Made by a program: the position numbers and the translations under genes. A DNA stretch of 33,230 nucleotides from Flavobacteriaceae bacterium (GTDB lineage Bacteria > Bacteroidota > Bacteroidia > Flavobacteriales > Flavobacteriaceae): NCBI GenBank assembly GCA_018608625.1, contig JABAZC010000038.1, forward strand, positions 1 to 33,230. Direction: 5' to 3'. The notes below the pieces were generated by a model. The model saw only the letters and a list, made by a program, of their open reading frames with translations, was not told where the DNA came from and did no database searches. Positions 23,722-33,206 of this stretch are shown piece by piece (position 1 is the stretch's first letter; each line of letters begins with the position of its first letter).

Positions 23722-26274
23722 ATGAAGTTTTTAATAAAATTAGTGTATGTTACCCTTATTTTAACTCCAATATTTGGGAATACACAAGGAATTAGCTTTA
23801 CCTCTAGTGAAAGTCCTATAGTCGAAAGAACTTCTTACAATGTATTTGTACACGATCAACCAAAATTTTCAGGTAATTTCAATATTGAGTTTGATTTATC
23901 CATTATAGATTCAAAAATATTTGGATACGTTTTAAATATAAAAGATAAAAATAATCCGATCTCGTATTCATTAGCATATATAAATAGTGTTGGTGGTGCT
24001 GGTGAACTTAGACTAAATTTAGATGGAGTTAAAAAACTACTTTCAATTCCTCTACAAAAAGAACTTATCGGTTCTAGAAAATGGATAAAAATAGCATTAA
24101 ATTTCAATTCATCATCAGAAGAAATTACTCTTTCAGTAAATGATAAAATGCACTCATCCATCGAAAATGAATTTAATAATATGATTATTCCTGAAATACA
24201 CTTTGGAAAACACGGAAGTGTCATAGATGTTCCTTTAATGGCTATTAAAAATCTAGTCATTACTAATAGAAACAACAAAAATGTATTTAATTTCAATGAA
24301 AGTGATGGAAATAATGTTTATGATTCTAAGGGAGATCTTTATGGAGATGTTGACCATCCGAATTGGTTAATCACGGAGTCTTATCACTGGAAATTAATAA
24401 GCACAGAGTCATTTGATCAGGTAACTTCTATAACTTTTGATGAAAATAACAATAGATTTATTTATCAAAATTCAGACTCTTTGAGTTTTTATGATCATGT
24501 AACTAAAAAAAATGTATTTTTTAGTTACAAAGATACTTTACCAGTGCCTATGCGGCTTGGAACTAGCTTCTTAAATACCAATGAAAATAAATTATATGTT
24601 TATGAATTATATGATGTACCAGATGGAGGATCGACAATTGCATCAATAAATTTAGAAAATCCAGAATATTGGTCTAAGAATAGTTCAGTTGAGCTATCTC
24701 AACAAAGACATCACCACAATGGAATATTTAATACTAGCTCGAATAAGTATATAATCTTCGGAGGTTATGGTAACCAAAGATATACTAATTCCTTCAACTC
24801 ATACGACATCAAAAAAAACAAATGGGAATCAGTATCATTTACCGGTGACAAAATATCTCCAAGATTTTTTTCTGGAATGACTCAAATTGGCGCTAAAAAC
24901 GTTTTATTATTTGGAGGGCAAGGAAATAAGACTGGAGAACAAAGTATTGGTAAAACATATTATTATGACTGTTACATGGTTAATTTGGAAACAAAGATAA
25001 TACAGAAGCTTTGGGATGTTAAACAAGAAAATATAAAAATGGTATCATCCAGAAATATCGTTCTTAACAAAGACTTATCTTCATTTTACACTCTTGGCTA
25101 TTCAGAGTATATTCCTTCTACATTTTTACAATTATATAATTATTCCATTAAGGATGGTAGCTACAAAATATTTGGAGATTCAATTCCTATGGTCTCAGAA
25201 AAGATTCGAACTAATGCAAATTTATATCTAAACAAGTCCACAAATCAGTTTTTTTGTACTACTCAAGAATTTGAAGAGGATGGGTCAAATAAAATTAATA
25301 TCTATTCATTAAATGGGCAGCCCGTATCAAAAGAAAATGTGTACAACATTGAAAAAAAAACAAAGTCTAAAATTGTTTTGATATTTATTGTTCTCCTATT
25401 AATGTCAGGTATCTTGTACTACTTAAAGTATTTAAATAAAATACGAAACAAGAAAAAAGACATCTTCCAAGTTCAAGTTCAAAATATATTAAAGCCTCAG
25501 GGTAGCACAAAAACATTAGAAATTAAAGCTAACTCTACTTATTTATTTGGTAGTTTTAGAATGTATGATAGAAATAAAAAAGATATTTCTTACCTGTTTA
25601 GCCCAAAAATAAGACAGTTATTTTTATTATTACTTTTTAGTAGTCGACAAAATGAAGTCCCAGGGTTAACATCCGAAAGAATTCACTCTACGCTTTGGCC
25701 AGAAAGCACCCCACAAAAAGCTAAAAACTTAAAGAATGTAATCATTAGTCAATTAAGGAATATCTTAAAGGATTTAGATGGATTAGAACTCATTTACTCC
25801 AAAGGTCGATTTTTTATGGAATTAGGAGATGAATTTTATTGTGATTATTTTAATTTCTCAATTCAATTAGATTGTTTAAGAGATGACTTACTAGATTACA
25901 GCTCTTTGAATGAACTGACTAACTTGATTAGTCCAGGAAAATTTCTATCGTCAATTAATGATGAATGCTTTGATAAAATAAAGAAAAACTTTGAATATGA
26001 AATATTAAAAATCCTTCCAAACCAATTGAAGCGTTCGTATGCAAATAAAGACTACACACATATCATCGCGCTAACAGAAATATTATTTAATATTGATTCA
26101 TTAAATGAAATAGCCTTTTACTATCGTATCCATACGCTTCACAATATGGGTTTGATTTTAAAGTCAAAAAAACAGTTTAATGATTATATTATAAGGTATA
26201 ATAAAATAATGGGAGATAACTATCCAAGTACTTATAAAGATGTTATTAAACAAATTCCAGATGAATTAATTTAA
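23722..26274 (+). CDS. membrane-spanning kelch/SARP-BTAD-like transcriptional regulator
   Basis: An 850-aa protein. Signal peptide 1-22; a LamG/concanavalin-like beta region (about 26-205: FNIEFDLSI, KWIKIALNFN); a beta-propeller-like region with at least two kelch motifs (about 330-430: YIIFGGYGNQRYTNSFNSYD, NVLLFGGQG); one membrane helix (about 551-572: IVLIFIVLLLMSGILYY). The cytoplasmic part has an OmpR/SARP-like winged helix (about 605-700: FSPKIRQLFLLLLF, IHSTLWPESTPQKAKNLKN, VIISQLRNIL, IYSKGRFFMEL) and a helical TPR/BTAD-like end (730-850). The topology suggests ligand sensing in the periplasm and direct DNA binding in the cytoplasm. Target and ligand are unknown; the adjacent convergent glycosidase operon (40 bp away) is the obvious candidate. 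The gene looks more AT-rich than the housekeeping part. Confidence 0.75.
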   Translation: MKFLIKLVYVTLILTPIFGNTQGISFTSSESPIVERTSYNVFVHDQPKFSGNFNIEFDLSIIDSKIFGYVLNIKDKNNPISYSLAYINSVGGAGELRLNLDGVKKLLSIPLQKELIGSRKWIKIALNFNSSSEEITLSVNDKMHSSIENEFNNMIIPEIHFGKHGSVIDVPLMAIKNLVITNRNNKNVFNFNESDGNNVYDSKGDLYGDVDHPNWLITESYHWKLISTESFDQVTSITFDENNNRFIYQNSDSLSFYDHVTKKNVFFSYKDTLPVPMRLGTSFLNTNENKLYVYELYDVPDGGSTIASINLENPEYWSKNSSVELSQQRHHHNGIFNTSSNKYIIFGGYGNQRYTNSFNSYDIKKNKWESVSFTGDKISPRFFSGMTQIGAKNVLLFGGQGNKTGEQSIGKTYYYDCYMVNLETKIIQKLWDVKQENIKMVSSRNIVLNKDLSSFYTLGYSEYIPSTFLQLYNYSIKDGSYKIFGDSIPMVSEKIRTNANLYLNKSTNQFFCTTQEFEEDGSNKINIYSLNGQPVSKENVYNIEKKTKSKIVLIFIVLLLMSGILYYLKYLNKIRNKKKDIFQVQVQNILKPQGSTKTLEIKANSTYLFGSFRMYDRNKKDISYLFSPKIRQLFLLLLFSSRQNEVPGLTSERIHSTLWPESTPQKAKNLKNVIISQLRNILKDLDGLELIYSKGRFFMELGDEFYCDYFNFSIQLDCLRDDLLDYSSLNELTNLISPGKFLSSINDECFDKIKKNFEYEILKILPNQLKRSYANKDYTHIIALTEILFNIDSLNEIAFYYRIHTLHNMGLILKSKKQFNDYIIRYNKIMGDNYPSTYKDVIKQIPDELI

Positions 26275-26306: not shown

Positions 26307-26326
26307 AATATTAATTATTTAATATT
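26307..26326. terminator. weak AT hairpin at the regulator/GH3 junction
   Basis: AATATTAA (26307-26314) and TTAATATT (26319-26326) form an 8-bp, all-AT inverted repeat with a TTAT loop that includes the GH3 stop codon. It could weakly end one or both convergent transcripts, but it has no GC pairs, so the call is tentative. Confidence 0.25.
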
Positions 26327-28459
26327 TATGCTTGTCATCTTGGATATACTTCCTGAAGAATTACCTACATAAACCATATAATCTCCTAGTTCTAGATTCC
26401 AATTAGATATTGATTCGTCGTAAAAAGATAAATCAGAAATATTTATAGTGATGATTTCGGTTGTTTGGTTTCCTGCTGCTAGATGTGTTTTTTTGAACCC
26501 TTTAAGCTCTTTTAAAGCTCTCGGAATTTTCGAGTTTGACTTACCAATATATACCTGAACAACTTCTGCCCCTTCCCTTCTCCCAGTATTTGTTAATTTA
26601 TATGATAAAATTATACTATCCGAGGCTGTGTAGAACTTTTTATTTGACTTAATCTCTGATATTTCAAATGTGGTGTAAGACAATCCATGTCCGAATGAAA
26701 ATAATGGTTTAATATTTTTAGTATCGTGCCATCTATACCCAACCAAAATATCATCTTTGTAGATTTGTGTTTCACCGTCACCAGGATAAGATAATTCACC
26801 AAAAAAATGAGCTGAATTATCATTTAGTTTAACAGGAAACGAAAATGGAAGTTTTCCAGATGGGTTCGAATCACCACTAATAATATCTGCAATTGCATTA
26901 CCAGCTTCACTCCCTAAATACCATGTTTGCAAAACAGCCTTAACCTTTAAAATCCACGGCATGCTAACAGCATTTCCACCTACTAATACGACCCCAATGT
27001 TAGGATTCACTTTTTGCAACTCACCTATTAAGTAATCTTGATTATATGGAAGCTTTAGTTCCTTGCGATCTTCAGCTTCACAATCTTGACCTCTATTTTT
27101 ATTGAGTCCGCCAACAAAAAGTACTACATCCGCCTGAGTTGCTTTTTCTATAGCATCACTAATAAGCAGCTTAGGATCTTGGTCTGAGTTTTCTGAGGTG
27201 TATCCTTTTGAAAAAATTATAGAGGCATTTTTAAAACGTTTTTTTAAACCTTCTAGAGGAGATACTTCATAATTAGCTTTTAACTCAGAAGAGCCACCCC
27301 CAGTAGTCATAGACTTTATCGCATTTTCACCAATCAAAGCAATCGTTAATTTCTTATCTGGATTTAAAGGGAAAAAATTAGCTCTATTTTTCAAAAGAAC
27401 AATACCTTCTGTGGCTACTTGACGAGCAACATGACTATGTTCAACATTATTTATTTTTCCTAACGGGCGACCTAAATCTAAAGTCGTACGCATCATCAAA
27501 CAGAGAATTCTTCGCACTTTATCATCTAAAACACGCTCATCAATTTCTCTACTTTTTACCAATTCCAAGAAAGATGAACCAAGAAAGTTAGCGTCAAATG
27601 CCTGTCTAGTTGGGGTTTTCGTGTCTATTGGAGACCCCATTTCTATATCAAGTCCATTTAAAGCTGCTTCTTTAGTATTGTGTGTGCCACCCCAGTCAGA
27701 GATGACAACCCCATCAAAATTCCAGTCAGTCTTAAGAATTTTATTTAAAAGAAGTTCGTGATGACTACAATGCTGCCCCCTAAATTGATTATATGCACCC
27801 ATTATAGACCATGTCTCTCCTAGCTTTACAGCAGCCTTAAAAGCAGGTAAATAGATCTCATTCAACGCCCGATCACTTACCTGAACATTAATATGATTCC
27901 TCCATAATTCCTGATTATTTAATGCAAAGTGTTTAACGCAAGCTGCAACTCCATTTGTTTGTACACCTTTGATATATGGCACTACCATTATAGAAGCTAA
28001 ATAGGGATCTTCTCCCATGTATTCAAAATTTCGTCCGTTAAGTGGTGTGCGATAAATATTAACTCCTGGTCCTAGTAAAATATCTTTTTTTCTGTAGCGC
28101 GCTTCTTCTCCAATACTAGTTCCATATTGATTTGACAGAAAAGGATTAAAGGTTGCAGCAAGACAAGTTAACGCAGGGAAAGCAGTTATATAATCATTTG
28201 TCCAACCTGAGTAATCCCAGTTAGACCAATTGATTTCTGCTCTAATTCCATGTGGACCATCCGACATCCACAATTCAGGAATTCCTAATCGAGGGACACC
28301 TGGTGAACTAAATTGAGACTGTGCATGACACATGGAAACCTTTTCTTTAAGGGTCAGTAAAGATAGAATACTATCTATTTTAAAATCTTTAATTTCTTGT
28401 GAAAAAGAAAGAGAATTAATGAATATAAAAAAAAGTAATAAATTTAATTTATTAATCAT
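26315..28459 (-). CDS. glycoside hydrolase family 3 (beta-glucosidase-like), secreted
   Basis: A 714-aa retaining glycosidase; family members remove terminal beta-linked glucose, xylose or related sugars. A signal peptide (1-20, ending SFSQ) sends it to the periplasm or beyond. GH3 N-terminal domain: WMSDGPHGIR (64-73), NGRNFEYMGEDPYL (141-154), VKHFALNNQE (175-184) and the nucleophile D255 in VVISDWGGTH. The C-terminal alpha/beta sandwich (from about 345) has NRGQDCEAEDR, the likely acid/base region, and is followed by a fibronectin-III-like domain (REGAEVVQVYIG, LKELKGFKK). No PA14 insert is seen. It is the last gene of the GH92-GH92-GH3 operon, 30 bp after the preceding gene. The substrate linkage cannot be fixed from sequence. 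Confidence 0.92.
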   Translation of the reverse strand: MINKLNLLLFFIFINSLSFSQEIKDFKIDSILSLLTLKEKVSMCHAQSQFSSPGVPRLGIPELWMSDGPHGIRAEINWSNWDYSGWTNDYITAFPALTCLAATFNPFLSNQYGTSIGEEARYRKKDILLGPGVNIYRTPLNGRNFEYMGEDPYLASIMVVPYIKGVQTNGVAACVKHFALNNQELWRNHINVQVSDRALNEIYLPAFKAAVKLGETWSIMGAYNQFRGQHCSHHELLLNKILKTDWNFDGVVISDWGGTHNTKEAALNGLDIEMGSPIDTKTPTRQAFDANFLGSSFLELVKSREIDERVLDDKVRRILCLMMRTTLDLGRPLGKINNVEHSHVARQVATEGIVLLKNRANFFPLNPDKKLTIALIGENAIKSMTTGGGSSELKANYEVSPLEGLKKRFKNASIIFSKGYTSENSDQDPKLLISDAIEKATQADVVLFVGGLNKNRGQDCEAEDRKELKLPYNQDYLIGELQKVNPNIGVVLVGGNAVSMPWILKVKAVLQTWYLGSEAGNAIADIISGDSNPSGKLPFSFPVKLNDNSAHFFGELSYPGDGETQIYKDDILVGYRWHDTKNIKPLFSFGHGLSYTTFEISEIKSNKKFYTASDSIILSYKLTNTGRREGAEVVQVYIGKSNSKIPRALKELKGFKKTHLAAGNQTTEIITINISDLSFYDESISNWNLELGDYMVYVGNSSGSISKMTSINIK

Positions 28460-28489: not shown

Positions 28490-30802
28490 TTAATCTTGAC
28501 TGACTGAGTATGGCTTTGAAGATTGATCAGTACCTAAGTTCATATTAGGCTCGGAACTCATTTCTGTAGTAAAAACAGAACCATTCATAATATCTTTGTA
28601 AGTGATATAATTTTTAGTATATGACGACTTGTTTTTGTAAATCCCGTTGATATATATGTTTTTATTGGAATTATTTGGTGCTTTTATTTCAAACGTATTT
28701 CCATTTTGAAGATGTAATTTTACATTTTTGAATAACGGACTCCCAATTGCATATTGACCTGTCCCAGGGGTAACTGGATAAAAACCTATCGCTGAAAATA
28801 CATACCAGGCAGAGGTTTGTCCATTATCTTCATCGCCACATAGGCCGTCCGGAGCAGATGAATATAGTTTATCCATGATTTCTCTTGCGCGAATTTGTGT
28901 TTTCCATGGTTGTTCAAGCCAATTATATAGATAAATAGCATGCTGAATAGGTTGATTCCCATGTGCATATTGTCCCATATCGCCCACTAGCATTTCAGTA
29001 ATTTCATGAATTTGTTGGCCGTAATATGAATCGTTGAATGTTGGTGCAGCTGTAAAGACCTCATCCAAACGATTACGCATTTTTACAATACCTCCAAAAG
29101 AGTCTGCCAATCCAATTGGATCATGGAATACACACCAAGTCCAATGCCATGATGAACCCTCAGTGAAAGCATCTCCCCATTTGTCTGGTGTAAATGTTTT
29201 AGCCCAAGTTCCGTCTTTATTCTTGCCCCGCATAAATCCAATCTCTGGATCAAACAAATTAGTGTAGTTTAAACTTCTATTCCTATATAAATCAATCTCT
29301 ATTTTAGGCTTATTCAAAGCAACTCCGAGTTCGGCTATACTCCAATCTGCAAAGGCATACTCTAGGGTTCGTGCGGCATTTTCATTCACTCCTACATCAT
29401 AAGGAATATAGCCTAAATCGTTATAATATTCTGCACCATATCGACCTACAGAACTTACAGGGCCTACACTTTTGCTGTTTTTTATAATTGCCTCGTAAAG
29501 CGTTTCAATGTCATAGCCACGAATCCCTCTTAAATAGGCATCGGCTATATTAATGGCAGAGTTGGACCCAACCATGCAATCTCTATGTCCAGGACTTGCC
29601 CATTCTGGCAACCAACCGCTTTCATTATACGTATTAACTAATCCTTGCATTAACTGGCTAGTATAGTCTGGATACATGATTGTGAAAAATGGAAATACAG
29701 CTCTAAAAGTATCCCAAAAGCCATTATCTGTAAACATATACCCTGGAAGCACCTCACCACTATATGGACTGTAATGAACAATTTCATTAGCAGCGTTAAG
29801 CTCATAAAACTTTCTTGGAAACAATAAGACTCTATATAGCGCTGTATAAAATGTTTTGTATTGCTCAACAGTGCCTCCTCCAACTTCTATTCTACCCAAT
29901 TCTTTATTCCACAGAGATGCAGCTTTTGTTTTTGTTTGATCAAAGTTATCAGTACCAATTTCCCTTTTTAAGTTTAATTCTGCTTGTTCTAAACTAATAA
30001 AGGAGGACGCTACTTTTGCTGTTATCTTTTCGTTGTTTAACGTTTTAAAAGTTAACACGGCCCCTGCATGATAGCCTTCTGCACTTAAAGCCTGAGTTAA
30101 CCTACTGTTATCAACTTTAGAATTTTTACTGGTTACCCATGTTTGTGAGTCTTCAAAATCTTTATCAAAATAAATTACAAAATAATTGTGAAAGTTTTGG
30201 GGAACACCTCCAGAATTATTGCGACAGTAACCTACTATTTTGCGTTCTTCAGGGAACACTTTCACCATAGATCCCTTAAAAAAGCCATCAACTAACACAT
30301 GAGCATTGTCTGTTTTAGGAAATGTAAATTGAAACTGTGCTCCTCGTTCAGTTGGAACTATTTCAGTTGTGACATCATAGTCTGCTAAATATACCTTGTA
30401 GTAATGTGGCTTGCTAATTTCTGCTTTATGTGAAAACCATGAAGCACGTTTGTCTTCGTTTATTTCAAGTTTTCCAGTCTCAGGAAACAAAGAAAAAGCT
30501 GCATAATCATTAATCCAAGGACTTGGTTGATGTGTTTGCTTGAAGCCTCTAATTTTATACGCGTTGTAAGTGTACCCCCATCCATTGCCCATTTCACCCG
30601 TTTGAGGAGTCCAAAAATTCATACCCCAAGGAGTTGCAATTGCAGGATAAGTATTTCCATTAGACAGTTCAAAAGCGGAGTCAGAGCCAACTAAAGGATT
30701 TACAAAATCTACAAGGCTCACGGAATTGTTAGAATCAGCTTGACTATAAACTTCCGTAGAAGTAAATACATAAAAACAGATTAAGATTCTTAAAATTTTC
30801 AT
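28490..30802 (-). CDS. glycoside hydrolase family 92 (alpha-mannosidase family), GDEDNG type
   Basis: A 770-aa secreted enzyme (signal peptide 1-20, ending VYSQ). GH92 enzymes are calcium-dependent inverting exo-alpha-mannosidases used on N-glycans and mannans. The N-terminal beta domain starts VDFVNPLVGSDSAFELSNG; the catalytic (alpha/alpha)6 domain has NGFWDTFRA, the probable acid E548 in TEGSSWHWTW, and GDEDNGQTSAWYVFSA with D657 and D659 as the likely base pair. The usual GNEP motif reads GNQP (Q617), a change near the sugar-binding +1 site that may mean a linkage other than alpha-1,2. It starts 48 bp after the upstream GH92 and ends 30 bp before GH3. Confidence 0.92.
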   Translation of the reverse strand: MKILRILICFYVFTSTEVYSQADSNNSVSLVDFVNPLVGSDSAFELSNGNTYPAIATPWGMNFWTPQTGEMGNGWGYTYNAYKIRGFKQTHQPSPWINDYAAFSLFPETGKLEINEDKRASWFSHKAEISKPHYYKVYLADYDVTTEIVPTERGAQFQFTFPKTDNAHVLVDGFFKGSMVKVFPEERKIVGYCRNNSGGVPQNFHNYFVIYFDKDFEDSQTWVTSKNSKVDNSRLTQALSAEGYHAGAVLTFKTLNNEKITAKVASSFISLEQAELNLKREIGTDNFDQTKTKAASLWNKELGRIEVGGGTVEQYKTFYTALYRVLLFPRKFYELNAANEIVHYSPYSGEVLPGYMFTDNGFWDTFRAVFPFFTIMYPDYTSQLMQGLVNTYNESGWLPEWASPGHRDCMVGSNSAINIADAYLRGIRGYDIETLYEAIIKNSKSVGPVSSVGRYGAEYYNDLGYIPYDVGVNENAARTLEYAFADWSIAELGVALNKPKIEIDLYRNRSLNYTNLFDPEIGFMRGKNKDGTWAKTFTPDKWGDAFTEGSSWHWTWCVFHDPIGLADSFGGIVKMRNRLDEVFTAAPTFNDSYYGQQIHEITEMLVGDMGQYAHGNQPIQHAIYLYNWLEQPWKTQIRAREIMDKLYSSAPDGLCGDEDNGQTSAWYVFSAIGFYPVTPGTGQYAIGSPLFKNVKLHLQNGNTFEIKAPNNSNKNIYINGIYKNKSSYTKNYITYKDIMNGSVFTTEMSSEPNMNLGTDQSSKPYSVSQD

Positions 30803-30850: not shown

Positions 30851-33058
30851 TTAGTTAAAACTAGGAGGCTCTGTGTTTTCTCCCCACGATTTATTTGGAG
30901 TATTGGAAGACTCGAAATCTATGGTACCCCCATTGTTAATTAAATCCCAATCGACCCAAGTAGACATATATTGCTTTCCATTAATTTTTAAGGACTTAAT
31001 GTAATAGTTTTCAGTAGAACCACCATTAATAGTTAATATTCCTTTAGGCAAATTTACTGTTACTTTTTCAAATTGAGGAAGGCTAACAGAAAACCCTGCC
31101 ACTCCAGGTATCATTGGATAAATTCCTACAGAAGCAAATACATACCATGCACCCATTGTTCCTAAGTCATCATTTCCAGGAAGTCCTGTTGGTTCACTAG
31201 TATACATCTCATTAAAAACTCTGTGAATAACTTCAGATGTCTTGAAGGGGCTATCCGTCCAATTATAGATCCATGGTGCTTGGAAGTCGGGCTCGTTTCC
31301 AGCAGCAAACCAATCATCATCATATGAGGCATCCAAACGCTCAAAGAATGTATTAAGTCGTTTTACAGCTGACTTAGACCCTCCAAGAGTATCAATTAAT
31401 CCTTTTAAGTTATAGGGAACCATCCAAAAATAATTCTTGTGGGTTGCTTCTCTCCAGTCATGTTCAATATCTTTCCACTTACCACTAGGATATCTAGAAT
31501 TCAACCATTTAATTTTAGGGTTATAAATATTTTTCCAATTCTGGGACCTATTTATGAAATAAGAGGCATCCTCTTTATTATTTAAAGCTTGGAGTGCAAA
31601 TTGTCCGATAGCAAAGTCAGATGAAGTATATTCCAGCATCATTGATGCAAAGGTATGACCATCTCTCATGTATTCAGTCAAATAGGGTCGGATTTCTTGA
31701 TCCTGAGAACGTATAAAAGGTACAGTAGCACCTCGTTTCATGTACTCATAAGCTTTGTGTAAGTCAAAATTAGTGGCACCAAAAGCATAAGAATTTGAAA
31801 TAAGTGTTGGTGTGGGGTCACCTTGCATAATCCCTGTCTCAATATTTGCTAAAATCCAACGTCCATACCCCCCACTTTGATCTGCAAAATCAACTAAAGA
31901 CTGCATCATTTCACTGCTCTGTTCAGGATATAACATGGCAACTAACTGTGCCTGTGTACGATAAGTATCCCAAACACTAAAAGAACTGTATTGATCATCT
32001 AATTTTGTCTTGTGAACTTTAAAATCAGCGCCCATATATTGCCCATTTACGTCGCTTACAATGTTAGGGTGGATCAGAGAGTGGTATAAATGGGTGTAAA
32101 ATTGTGTTTTACGGTCAGCATTTGGTGAAACGATTGAAATTTTTGACAAGCATATGTCCCAAGCGTACTCTGCATTTTTTTTGTAAGCACTAAAACCACC
32201 ATCAATAATGCTAGCTTTCAAGTTTTCTTTAGCATTTTCTATTGAAACGTAAGAAATTGCTATGCGATAATTGACCTCACTAATTTCTGTCGTATCAAAT
32301 GAAAAGTAGGCTCCAGAATCTTTTCCAGATGCTAGACTTAACTCTTCAGATAATACATTTTTATCCCAAGTTCCACTAGAGGAAAAAGATCTGTCAAATT
32401 CGGCCACAAAATACAGCTTATAATTTGTAGAGGAGCCACAAAAATCACCTCCCTCTGCAAAGCCTTCACAACTTGAATTCGAAGTAATATTAATCATTGC
32501 ATTGGTAACTTCAGTAGAACTAACCCCAGAACCAATTAAAACTGTGCCTACTTTTGATGTTTCATCAAACTTAAAATTCGCTAATCCTGAACGTTTACTA
32601 ACTGTTAGGTTAGCAGTTGTACGGTCGGGCATTTCAACAGACAAAAATCCTGCATGAGATTCATTTATTGATTTATATTTATTAAAACTATCCATTTTAT
32701 TAGGAGAAACTTTGAGGGAACCAGATATTGGTAATACAGGGAAATTCCCCATGTGCGGACATCCTGCTCCGCTTAGCTGATTGATTACAAAACCCTTCTG
32801 AGGAGAAAAAAAACTGGGAGTAAACTGAACCATTCCAAAGGGGTAAGTTGCTCCAATAAAATTATAACCACATCCCAATCCACTACCTTGAGAACCAATT
32901 TGTGGGTCGACAACTTTAGATAGTTGCTGAGCAGTAACCGAGAAATTAACAAAAATCAGAAATAACAAAATAAAAAACCTTGCTATACTTTTAGAAATAT
33001 TTAAGATTTTAAATATGAATTTAAAAATTGGAGTCATTAAATTTATATAATTATTCAT
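30851..33058 (-). CDS. glycoside hydrolase family 92 (alpha-mannosidase family), GNDDLG type
   Basis: A 735-aa secreted GH92 enzyme and first gene of the glycosidase operon. The N-terminus is long and basic before the hydrophobic core (FFILLFLIFVNFSVTAQ, cleavage near residue 44); an internal ATG at 33037 (M8) would give a more usual signal peptide. GH92 landmarks are VVDPQIGSQGSG at the mature start, VWDTYRTQAQL, the probable acid E537 in WREATHKNYFW, E589 in GNEPDFQAP and GNDDLGTMGAWYVFASVG with N629, D630 and D631. These differ from the GDEDNG/GNQP set of the neighbouring GH92, so the two are distant paralogues with probably different linkage preferences. Phased GATTAA repeats lie 70-110 bp upstream of its start. 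Confidence 0.92.
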   Translation of the reverse strand: MNNYINLMTPIFKFIFKILNISKSIARFFILLFLIFVNFSVTAQQLSKVVDPQIGSQGSGLGCGYNFIGATYPFGMVQFTPSFFSPQKGFVINQLSGAGCPHMGNFPVLPISGSLKVSPNKMDSFNKYKSINESHAGFLSVEMPDRTTANLTVSKRSGLANFKFDETSKVGTVLIGSGVSSTEVTNAMINITSNSSCEGFAEGGDFCGSSTNYKLYFVAEFDRSFSSSGTWDKNVLSEELSLASGKDSGAYFSFDTTEISEVNYRIAISYVSIENAKENLKASIIDGGFSAYKKNAEYAWDICLSKISIVSPNADRKTQFYTHLYHSLIHPNIVSDVNGQYMGADFKVHKTKLDDQYSSFSVWDTYRTQAQLVAMLYPEQSSEMMQSLVDFADQSGGYGRWILANIETGIMQGDPTPTLISNSYAFGATNFDLHKAYEYMKRGATVPFIRSQDQEIRPYLTEYMRDGHTFASMMLEYTSSDFAIGQFALQALNNKEDASYFINRSQNWKNIYNPKIKWLNSRYPSGKWKDIEHDWREATHKNYFWMVPYNLKGLIDTLGGSKSAVKRLNTFFERLDASYDDDWFAAGNEPDFQAPWIYNWTDSPFKTSEVIHRVFNEMYTSEPTGLPGNDDLGTMGAWYVFASVGIYPMIPGVAGFSVSLPQFEKVTVNLPKGILTINGGSTENYYIKSLKINGKQYMSTWVDWDLINNGGTIDFESSNTPNKSWGENTEPPSFN

Positions 33059-33127: not shown

Positions 33128-33167
33128 GATTAAGTCAGAGATTAATTGTCGATTAATGGTAGATTAA
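33128..33167. repeat. four phased GATTAA direct repeats (candidate operator)
   Basis: GATTAA occurs on the plus strand starting at 33128, 33140, 33151 and 33162, that is at spacings of 12, 11 and 11 bp; each is followed by G or T. All copies therefore lie on about the same face of the helix. The array lies 70-110 bp upstream of the first gene of the glycosidase operon. SARP-type regulators bind direct repeats with 11-bp periodicity, and a SARP-like regulator is encoded next door. Confidence 0.6.
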
Positions 33168-33206
33168 GTTTTAATTTAATTAATTAATTAAATTAAATTA
33201 AAACTT
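33166..33206. repeat. 16-bp AT-rich inverted repeat
   Basis: The arm at 33166-33181 (AAGTTTTAATTTAATT) is exactly complementary to 33191-33206, with a 9-nt AT-only loop. It overlaps the end of the GATTAA array. It has too little GC for a typical terminator; it could end an incoming transcript from the right, or be a cruciform or protein site. Confidence 0.5.

Follow-up and report, generated by a model that had tools for sequence, protein, structure and literature searches.

The regulators known for PULs are SusR-like proteins, HTCS and ECF/anti-sigma systems (PMC3878776, in part). A 2024 review on hemicellulase genes treats HTCS, ECF/anti-sigma control and catabolite repression and, by word count, uses neither the term SARP nor the term kelch (PMC10766802). 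Both words are also absent from the main text of PMC3878776, and no SARP or kelch regulator of PULs was found in the partial texts of the open PMC matches listed, which does not by itself establish that none has been described. Regulators of the SARP type include AfsR, ActII-ORF4 and DnrI of Streptomyces, with EmbR as a related protein in Mycobacterium, and combine a winged helix with a following helical BTA-type domain. In SARP proteins the SARP domain is N-terminal and extra domains come after it; their sites consist of direct repeats whose spacing is 11 or 22 bp and of which the 3' one is placed 8 bp from the -10 element, and two protomers bind side by side on the DNA and engage region 4 of the sigma factor (PMC10936776, in part). 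As for promoters, the -7 consensus of Bacteroides is TAnnTTTG, and Flavobacterium johnsoniae has yielded no -33 motif (PMC7366714, in part).

Here we analyze a locus of a marine Flavobacteriaceae bacterium. A phased array of short repeats is, in our view, very probably the operator of the promoter of a GH92-GH92-GH3 operon, bound by a linked kelch-membrane SARP-like regulator that would switch the operon on.

The phased array upstream of the glycosidase operon

The window, that is, the whole stretch of 33,230 nucleotides analyzed, belongs to contig C8 of genome G000. It carries on its minus strand the three genes of the operon: GH92a, the first (30851-33058; Pfam PF07971/PF17678 and NCBIfam TIGR01180), GH92b, the second (28490-30802; Pfam and NCBIfam), and a GH3 gene, the third (26315-28459; Pfam). 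As stated in the original prediction, four copies of GATTAA are found on the plus strand at 33128, 33140, 33151 and 33162, with spacings of 12, 11 and 11 bp, and they lie 70 to 109 bp upstream of the GH92a start codon (33058). Read on the operon strand, the promoter is TTAATC-5-TTAATC-5-TTAATC-6-TTAATC-9-TATATTTA. The candidate operator (33128-33167, minus strand) is thus made of four TTAATC units (33162-33167, 33151-33156, 33140-33145 and 33128-33133) spaced 11, 11 and 12 bp towards the operon. The possible -7 element that had been proposed 9 bp from the nearest copy corresponds to TATATTTA (33118-33111, minus strand), a -7-like box to be compared with the TAnnTTTG consensus (PMC7366714, in part). 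Since no -33 motif is reported for F. johnsoniae in that source, the missing of an obvious one here is no counter-argument.

The repeat geometry had been claimed to be SARP-like, and it is indeed a near match: spacings of 11, 11 and 12 bp and a distance of 9 bp to the -7 box, counted from the hexamer, stand against the 11 or 22 bp and 8 bp of the SARP rule. GATTAA is not enriched as a word in the window (40 copies seen, 43.4 expected), and enrichment was ruled out; it is the phasing, not the word frequency, that sets these copies apart. When the window was scanned for four exact copies of any hexamer having at least one G or C and three different bases, this was the sole array at spacings of 10 to 13 bp, and no comparable array was found at five other spacing classes. 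No four-copy array arose in 60 dinucleotide shuffles of the whole window or in 5000 local ones.

The window ends 63 bp beyond the array, where a 100-N scaffold gap begins (contig C8:33231-33330, equal to L002:1232-1331), and beyond the gap lies a divergent ion-channel gene that starts at contig C8:33497. The array, located between the two genes, might serve the ion-channel gene and not the GH92 operon, all the more as TTAA is palindromic, so that the orientation of the array depends on the -7 box and on the bases after the core; moreover, in the related genome G015 the array is flanked by the same gene pair. However, the -7 box placed at a fixed 9 bp faces GH92, at other places this register is followed by genes for GH92, GH3 or secreted proteins or by those of SusC operons, and among the sites examined the ion-channel gene stands beside it in G000 and G015 only. 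We find service to the ion-channel gene scarcely credible and take the GH92 operon as the target of the array.

Three minor features of this region were seen. An identical stretch of 55 bases on both sides of the 100-N gap resembles an assembler k-mer overlap; by eye G015 shows no such duplication, so that the 55-bp direct repeat is probably only apparent and an artefact. The stretch just ahead of the ion-channel start (about L002:1440-1497 and L053:15115-15176, around TTTGTTCC) looks alike by eye in G000 and G015, much of the spacer having diverged. Finally, an AT-rich inverted repeat (33166-33206; arms of 16 nt with 9 nt between) adjoins the upstream end of the array, and none was seen by eye in G015.

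The kelch regulator and its predicted SARP-like domain

The regulator gene (23722-26274, plus strand) encodes a protein with a signal-like N-terminal segment, a kelch propeller, one hydrophobic segment at about residues 551-571 and a C-terminal SARP-like domain, the signal-like and hydrophobic segments being identified by eye. Kelch models were the only ones above the Pfam cut-offs; they were present in eight of eight aligned regulator members and at about residues 305-450 of the window protein. HTCS can carry propeller sensors, but an HTCS combines a histidine kinase, a receiver and an AraC-type domain, and none of these was detected by Pfam in the regulator. Membrane one-component regulators of the ToxR/CadC type join an OmpR-type winged helix, by way of a single membrane segment, to a sensor in the periplasm; compared with them, the order is here inverted, with the sensor N-terminal and the DNA-binding part C-terminal, and a BTA-type domain is added.

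The C-terminal domain (residues 590-850; 25489-26271, plus strand) was predicted by AlphaFold2 with a pLDDT of 92.5 for the cytoplasmic part when an alignment of 56 sequences was used, superseding a poor single-sequence prediction (pLDDT 43). In the model an OmpR-type winged helix is followed by an all-helical BTA-type domain, and the proposal of a SARP-like regulator is supported in that the fold predicted for this part resembles that of the SARP domain in AfsR and EmbR. At E up to 0.001 Foldseek gave six matches in the PDB, all of them AfsR complexes or EmbR (AfsR 8hvr_I, E 4.4e-07, and 8k60; EmbR 2ff4 and 2fez; E up to 3e-06), and the next match had an E of 0.02. The TM-scores were moderate, 0.56-0.61 by query length.

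Similarity at the sequence level is weak. With E up to 1, the Pfam model BTAD matched 14 of the 56 members (best E 0.0003) and Trans_reg_C matched nine (best E 0.003), the window domain reaching 16.5 bits with the latter against a cut-off of 26.2. NCBIfam gave scattered weak matches on the family, AfsR/SARP models included, whole-genome searching with BTAD gave no match, and the family profile run against PDB sequences found weak matches only, to TPR-type and designed proteins. Two columns of the family alignment are invariant, W70 and N80. Trp 74 of AfsR touches the DNA backbone (PMC10936776, in part), and we infer that W70 of the family is its equivalent.

The likeness to SARPs and EmbR lies in the winged helix followed by a helical BTA-type domain and, for SARPs, in the 11-bp direct repeats near the -10 or -7 element. 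The differences are that the phylum is Bacteroidota, the unit is YTAAYC, the repeats number four or five in the close set and the genes concern glycans. Furthermore, whereas the domain is N-terminal in SARP proteins, here it is C-terminal, behind the kelch propeller and the membrane segment. Because of this position and of the weak Pfam match, we name the protein SARP-like and not a family member proper. SusR-like regulators of Bacteroides are also membrane proteins with a periplasmic sensor and a C-terminal DNA-binding domain, but the motifs predicted for them are pairs of sites separated by 67 or 77 bp, unlike the 11-bp repeats found here; HTCS of PULs share with the present system the control of SusC/D operons through a periplasmic sensor (PMC3878776, in part).

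Conservation of the array with the regulator

The regulator has a patchy distribution. Eleven of 100 relatives, own genome counted, match it at E up to 0.001: four at full length and at least 54% identity (G000, G015, G017 and G041), two as fragments (G016 and G008) and five distantly; among 397 family genomes, three match it at 1e-60. A strict array pattern was found in six of the 100 relatives, corresponding to all four that have the full-length regulator at 54% or above and to two of the 96 others, odds that are not independent as the genomes are related. The two genomes with regulator fragments gave no strict match, and the reversed control pattern occurred in five genomes, G041 included. 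In the four genomes with full-length regulator, the strict-pattern sites lie each time at the head of a regulator-associated operon or PUL.

In G015 both gene order and array are kept: three exact units stand at 11 bp, the fourth unit, at 12 bp, carries one change, and the same TATATTTAATAA is present, the rest of the DNA having diverged. GH92a is apart from SusC in the examined sequence of G000 and G015 and has its own array; in G017 and G041 no separate array accompanies GH92a, and the array is found at the PUL head, ahead of SusC or in the stretch that separates SusC from the gene of a small secreted protein. Genome G005, 76% complete, has a GH92a at 58%, and neither the regulator nor an array upstream of GH92a was found in it.

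Nine promoters aligned on the -7 box share a common register of 11, 11, 12 and 9 bp. A search for this register with YTAA units, in which at most one miss of 21 positions was allowed, gave 17 matches in 257,112 bases from 19 close-regulator loci, a set that takes in G008, where the regulator is known as a fragment only. These sites span nine genomes in which a relative of the regulator shows about 48% identity or higher, and what follows them is a glycosidase gene, a gene of a SusC operon, the gene of a PUL-linked secreted protein or the regulator itself. Nine of the 19 loci, containing nine of the 17 sites, were fetched by pattern matches (L168, L169, L170, L192 to L195, L197 and L198); the other eight sites are in loci fetched independently. 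Neither the 26 other GH92 loci (134,541 bases), some of which come from genomes with a distant regulator or a regulator fragment (G016), nor the distant-regulator loci (961,281 bases) contained the register; the arrays that do appear in the distant-regulator loci mostly have three units. Among the 52 units of 13 such register sites, TTAA is followed by T in 38 and next by C in 31. In Arenibacter aquaticus the register occurs at the SusC-operon promoter with units that are mostly CTAAYC, and a TTAA-chain search of the PUL promoter of this organism gave no match; in the other two Arenibacter the upstream reading stopped short of the corresponding promoter. The expected conservation of the repeats is thus borne out, as far as sequence comparison goes, by the same register before glycosidase and SusC-operon genes in related regulator genomes.

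With the register fixed and up to two mismatches permitted, 12 genomes yielded 26 matches against 12 for the reversed control. The zero-mismatch matches were without exception (9/9) placed before glycosidase, SusC or PUL-linked secreted-protein genes. Three of the five one-mismatch matches precede such PUL genes, another precedes the G008 regulator fragment and the fifth is G015:C53. Among the 12 two-mismatch matches, three precede such PUL genes (G000:C84 and two in G467), the one at G468:C5 sits between genes without match to PUL proteins, and the remaining ones are probably mostly due to chance.

In this genome the register occurs at three promoters on three contigs, C8 (the window), C17 and C84. 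The C17 site precedes a gene that diverges from SusC and encodes a 243-aa protein carrying a secretion-system sorting domain; the C84 site, with two mismatches, precedes a second GH3 gene and recurs before GH3 in G015, where gene order is kept. At C17, as well as in G017 and G466, the register is directed at the small secreted-protein gene and not at the divergent SusC, and no clear array with a -7 box facing SusC was seen in the SusC/secreted-protein intergenic regions L168:12560-12887 and L064:864-1182. A further site in G008 (L067:11301-11356) is located upstream of the regulator gene fragment and may represent autoregulation.

We then considered the wider family by means of 62 loci found with an alignment of eight regulators. 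By record title all are from Bacteroidota except one titled Neomarinimicrobiota, and 37 contain a SusC-like ORF of more than 600 aa within the examined stretch; the loci are not independent, several being close pairs. In their intergenic DNA, TTAA recurs three or more times at 11/12 bp in 41 chains, which are distributed over 35 of the loci, and the other 27 show no such triplet in the examined sequence. In 200 dinucleotide shuffles, the mean was 3.5 chains and the maximum eight, in at most seven loci. Other TTAA spacings gave at most six chains, barring the overlapping 10/11 class (32) and the double spacings of 21-23 bp (11 and 13). Chains were denser in intergenic regions touching the regulator (25 in 28,174 bases) than in the others (16 in 64,327 bases). 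A TAnnTTTG-like box peaks 9 bp past the last hexamer, with 17 cases, and none of the other positions among the 45 offsets exceeds five. The 27 loci of a small control yielded a single chain over 8,992 intergenic bases, compared with 41 over 92,501 in the regulator loci; so little sequence does not decide the matter, and two of the control loci (L066 and L067) come from regulator contigs.

At the level of whole genomes, the pattern of three TTAA at 11/12 bp plus a -7 box had 28 matches in 16 of 19 regulator genomes against two for the reversed pattern. The 100 relatives gave 45 matches in 30 genomes: eight in the four regulator genomes, where the control gave none, and 37 in the other 96 genomes, where the control gave 37 as well, so that part of the 28 must be background. 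As judged from these data, the signal is phylum-wide and sites in trans are present in this genome, a scope wider than the original prediction supposed.

The region is very AT-rich and runs of TTAA are frequent nearby, so that the array could be plain promoter DNA of the UP-element-like or curved kind, acting with no sequence-specific regulator. Against this, AATT shows no 11-bp peak in the 62 loci, whose intergenic DNA contains not one AATT chain of the 11/12-bp class, the arrays are not generated by shuffles, and array plus -7 box falls to the reversed-control level in the 96 relatives without a full-length close regulator. We judge this explanation highly unlikely. Somewhat less remote, though still improbable, is that the array is the site of some other DNA-binding protein from the same regulon, with the kelch-SARP protein just accompanying the genes, gene linkage being by itself no proof of direct contact. 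Yet the array architecture tracks the regulator family over 62 loci and many genera, the array geometry is near that published for SARPs, and the family profile, even with E up to 1, matches a single place in the genome (91% complete), which is this regulator. The linked kelch protein remains our preferred candidate for binding the array.

An unbiased scan of the intergenic DNA of the 62 loci for three near-identical 7-mers gave four arrays at period 11, ten at period 22 (six loci) and at most three at other periods. Some period-22 arrays lie directly downstream of distant family members (L109:12594, L132:12614 and L136:12639) and recall the 22-bp spacing of SARP sites; because others are far from the regulator (L091, L103 and L116), we set them aside as evidence. 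Tandem units of 22-23 bp that look partly palindromic were also noticed away from the regulator at L091:16206, L101:2421 and L103:20247.

Proposed mode of action

On our reading of the sequences and of the modeled fold, the protein would be a membrane-held, kelch-sensor, SARP-like activator of PULs that works like a SARP. Copies of its cytoplasmic domain, presumably four protomers, would line up on the four TTAAYC units along one face of the DNA, and the last copy would be positioned to keep RNA polymerase at the TATATTTA -7 box and thereby turn the operon on, which would make it an activator rather than a repressor. According to its putative topology, the periplasmic kelch propeller would sense a glycan fragment and exert control through the single membrane segment, with no phosphorelay. 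GH92 enzymes cut alpha-mannose-containing glycans, and on this ground the signal is probably a glycan of that kind. More broadly, and with only fair assurance, we favor the view that kelch-membrane-SARP proteins constitute a further, phylum-wide class of PUL regulators beside HTCS, SusR-like and ECF/anti-sigma systems. They would be one-component transmembrane activators whose protomers, upon binding of a glycan by the propeller, assemble side by side on three to five phased YTAAYC units, replacing the -33 contact of the Bacteroidota sigma factor and controlling regulons in trans.

If this is true, Bacteroidota gain a further glycan-sensing route for switching on PULs, and activation of the SARP type operates with a different primary sigma factor and a -7 box. 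The operator would also be simple enough for sequence-based prediction of targets. The predicted regulon comprises GH92 and GH3 enzymes, SusC/D operons and a secreted protein with a T9SS-type sorting domain, and it is directly testable in culturable strains of Arenibacter or Winogradskyella.

Two proteins from other relatives, in L021 (G038) and L022 (G035), match only the C-terminal part of the regulator, and by eye the products of their neighboring genes have a Tat-like signal; these proteins are possibly SARP-like regulators with other sensors.
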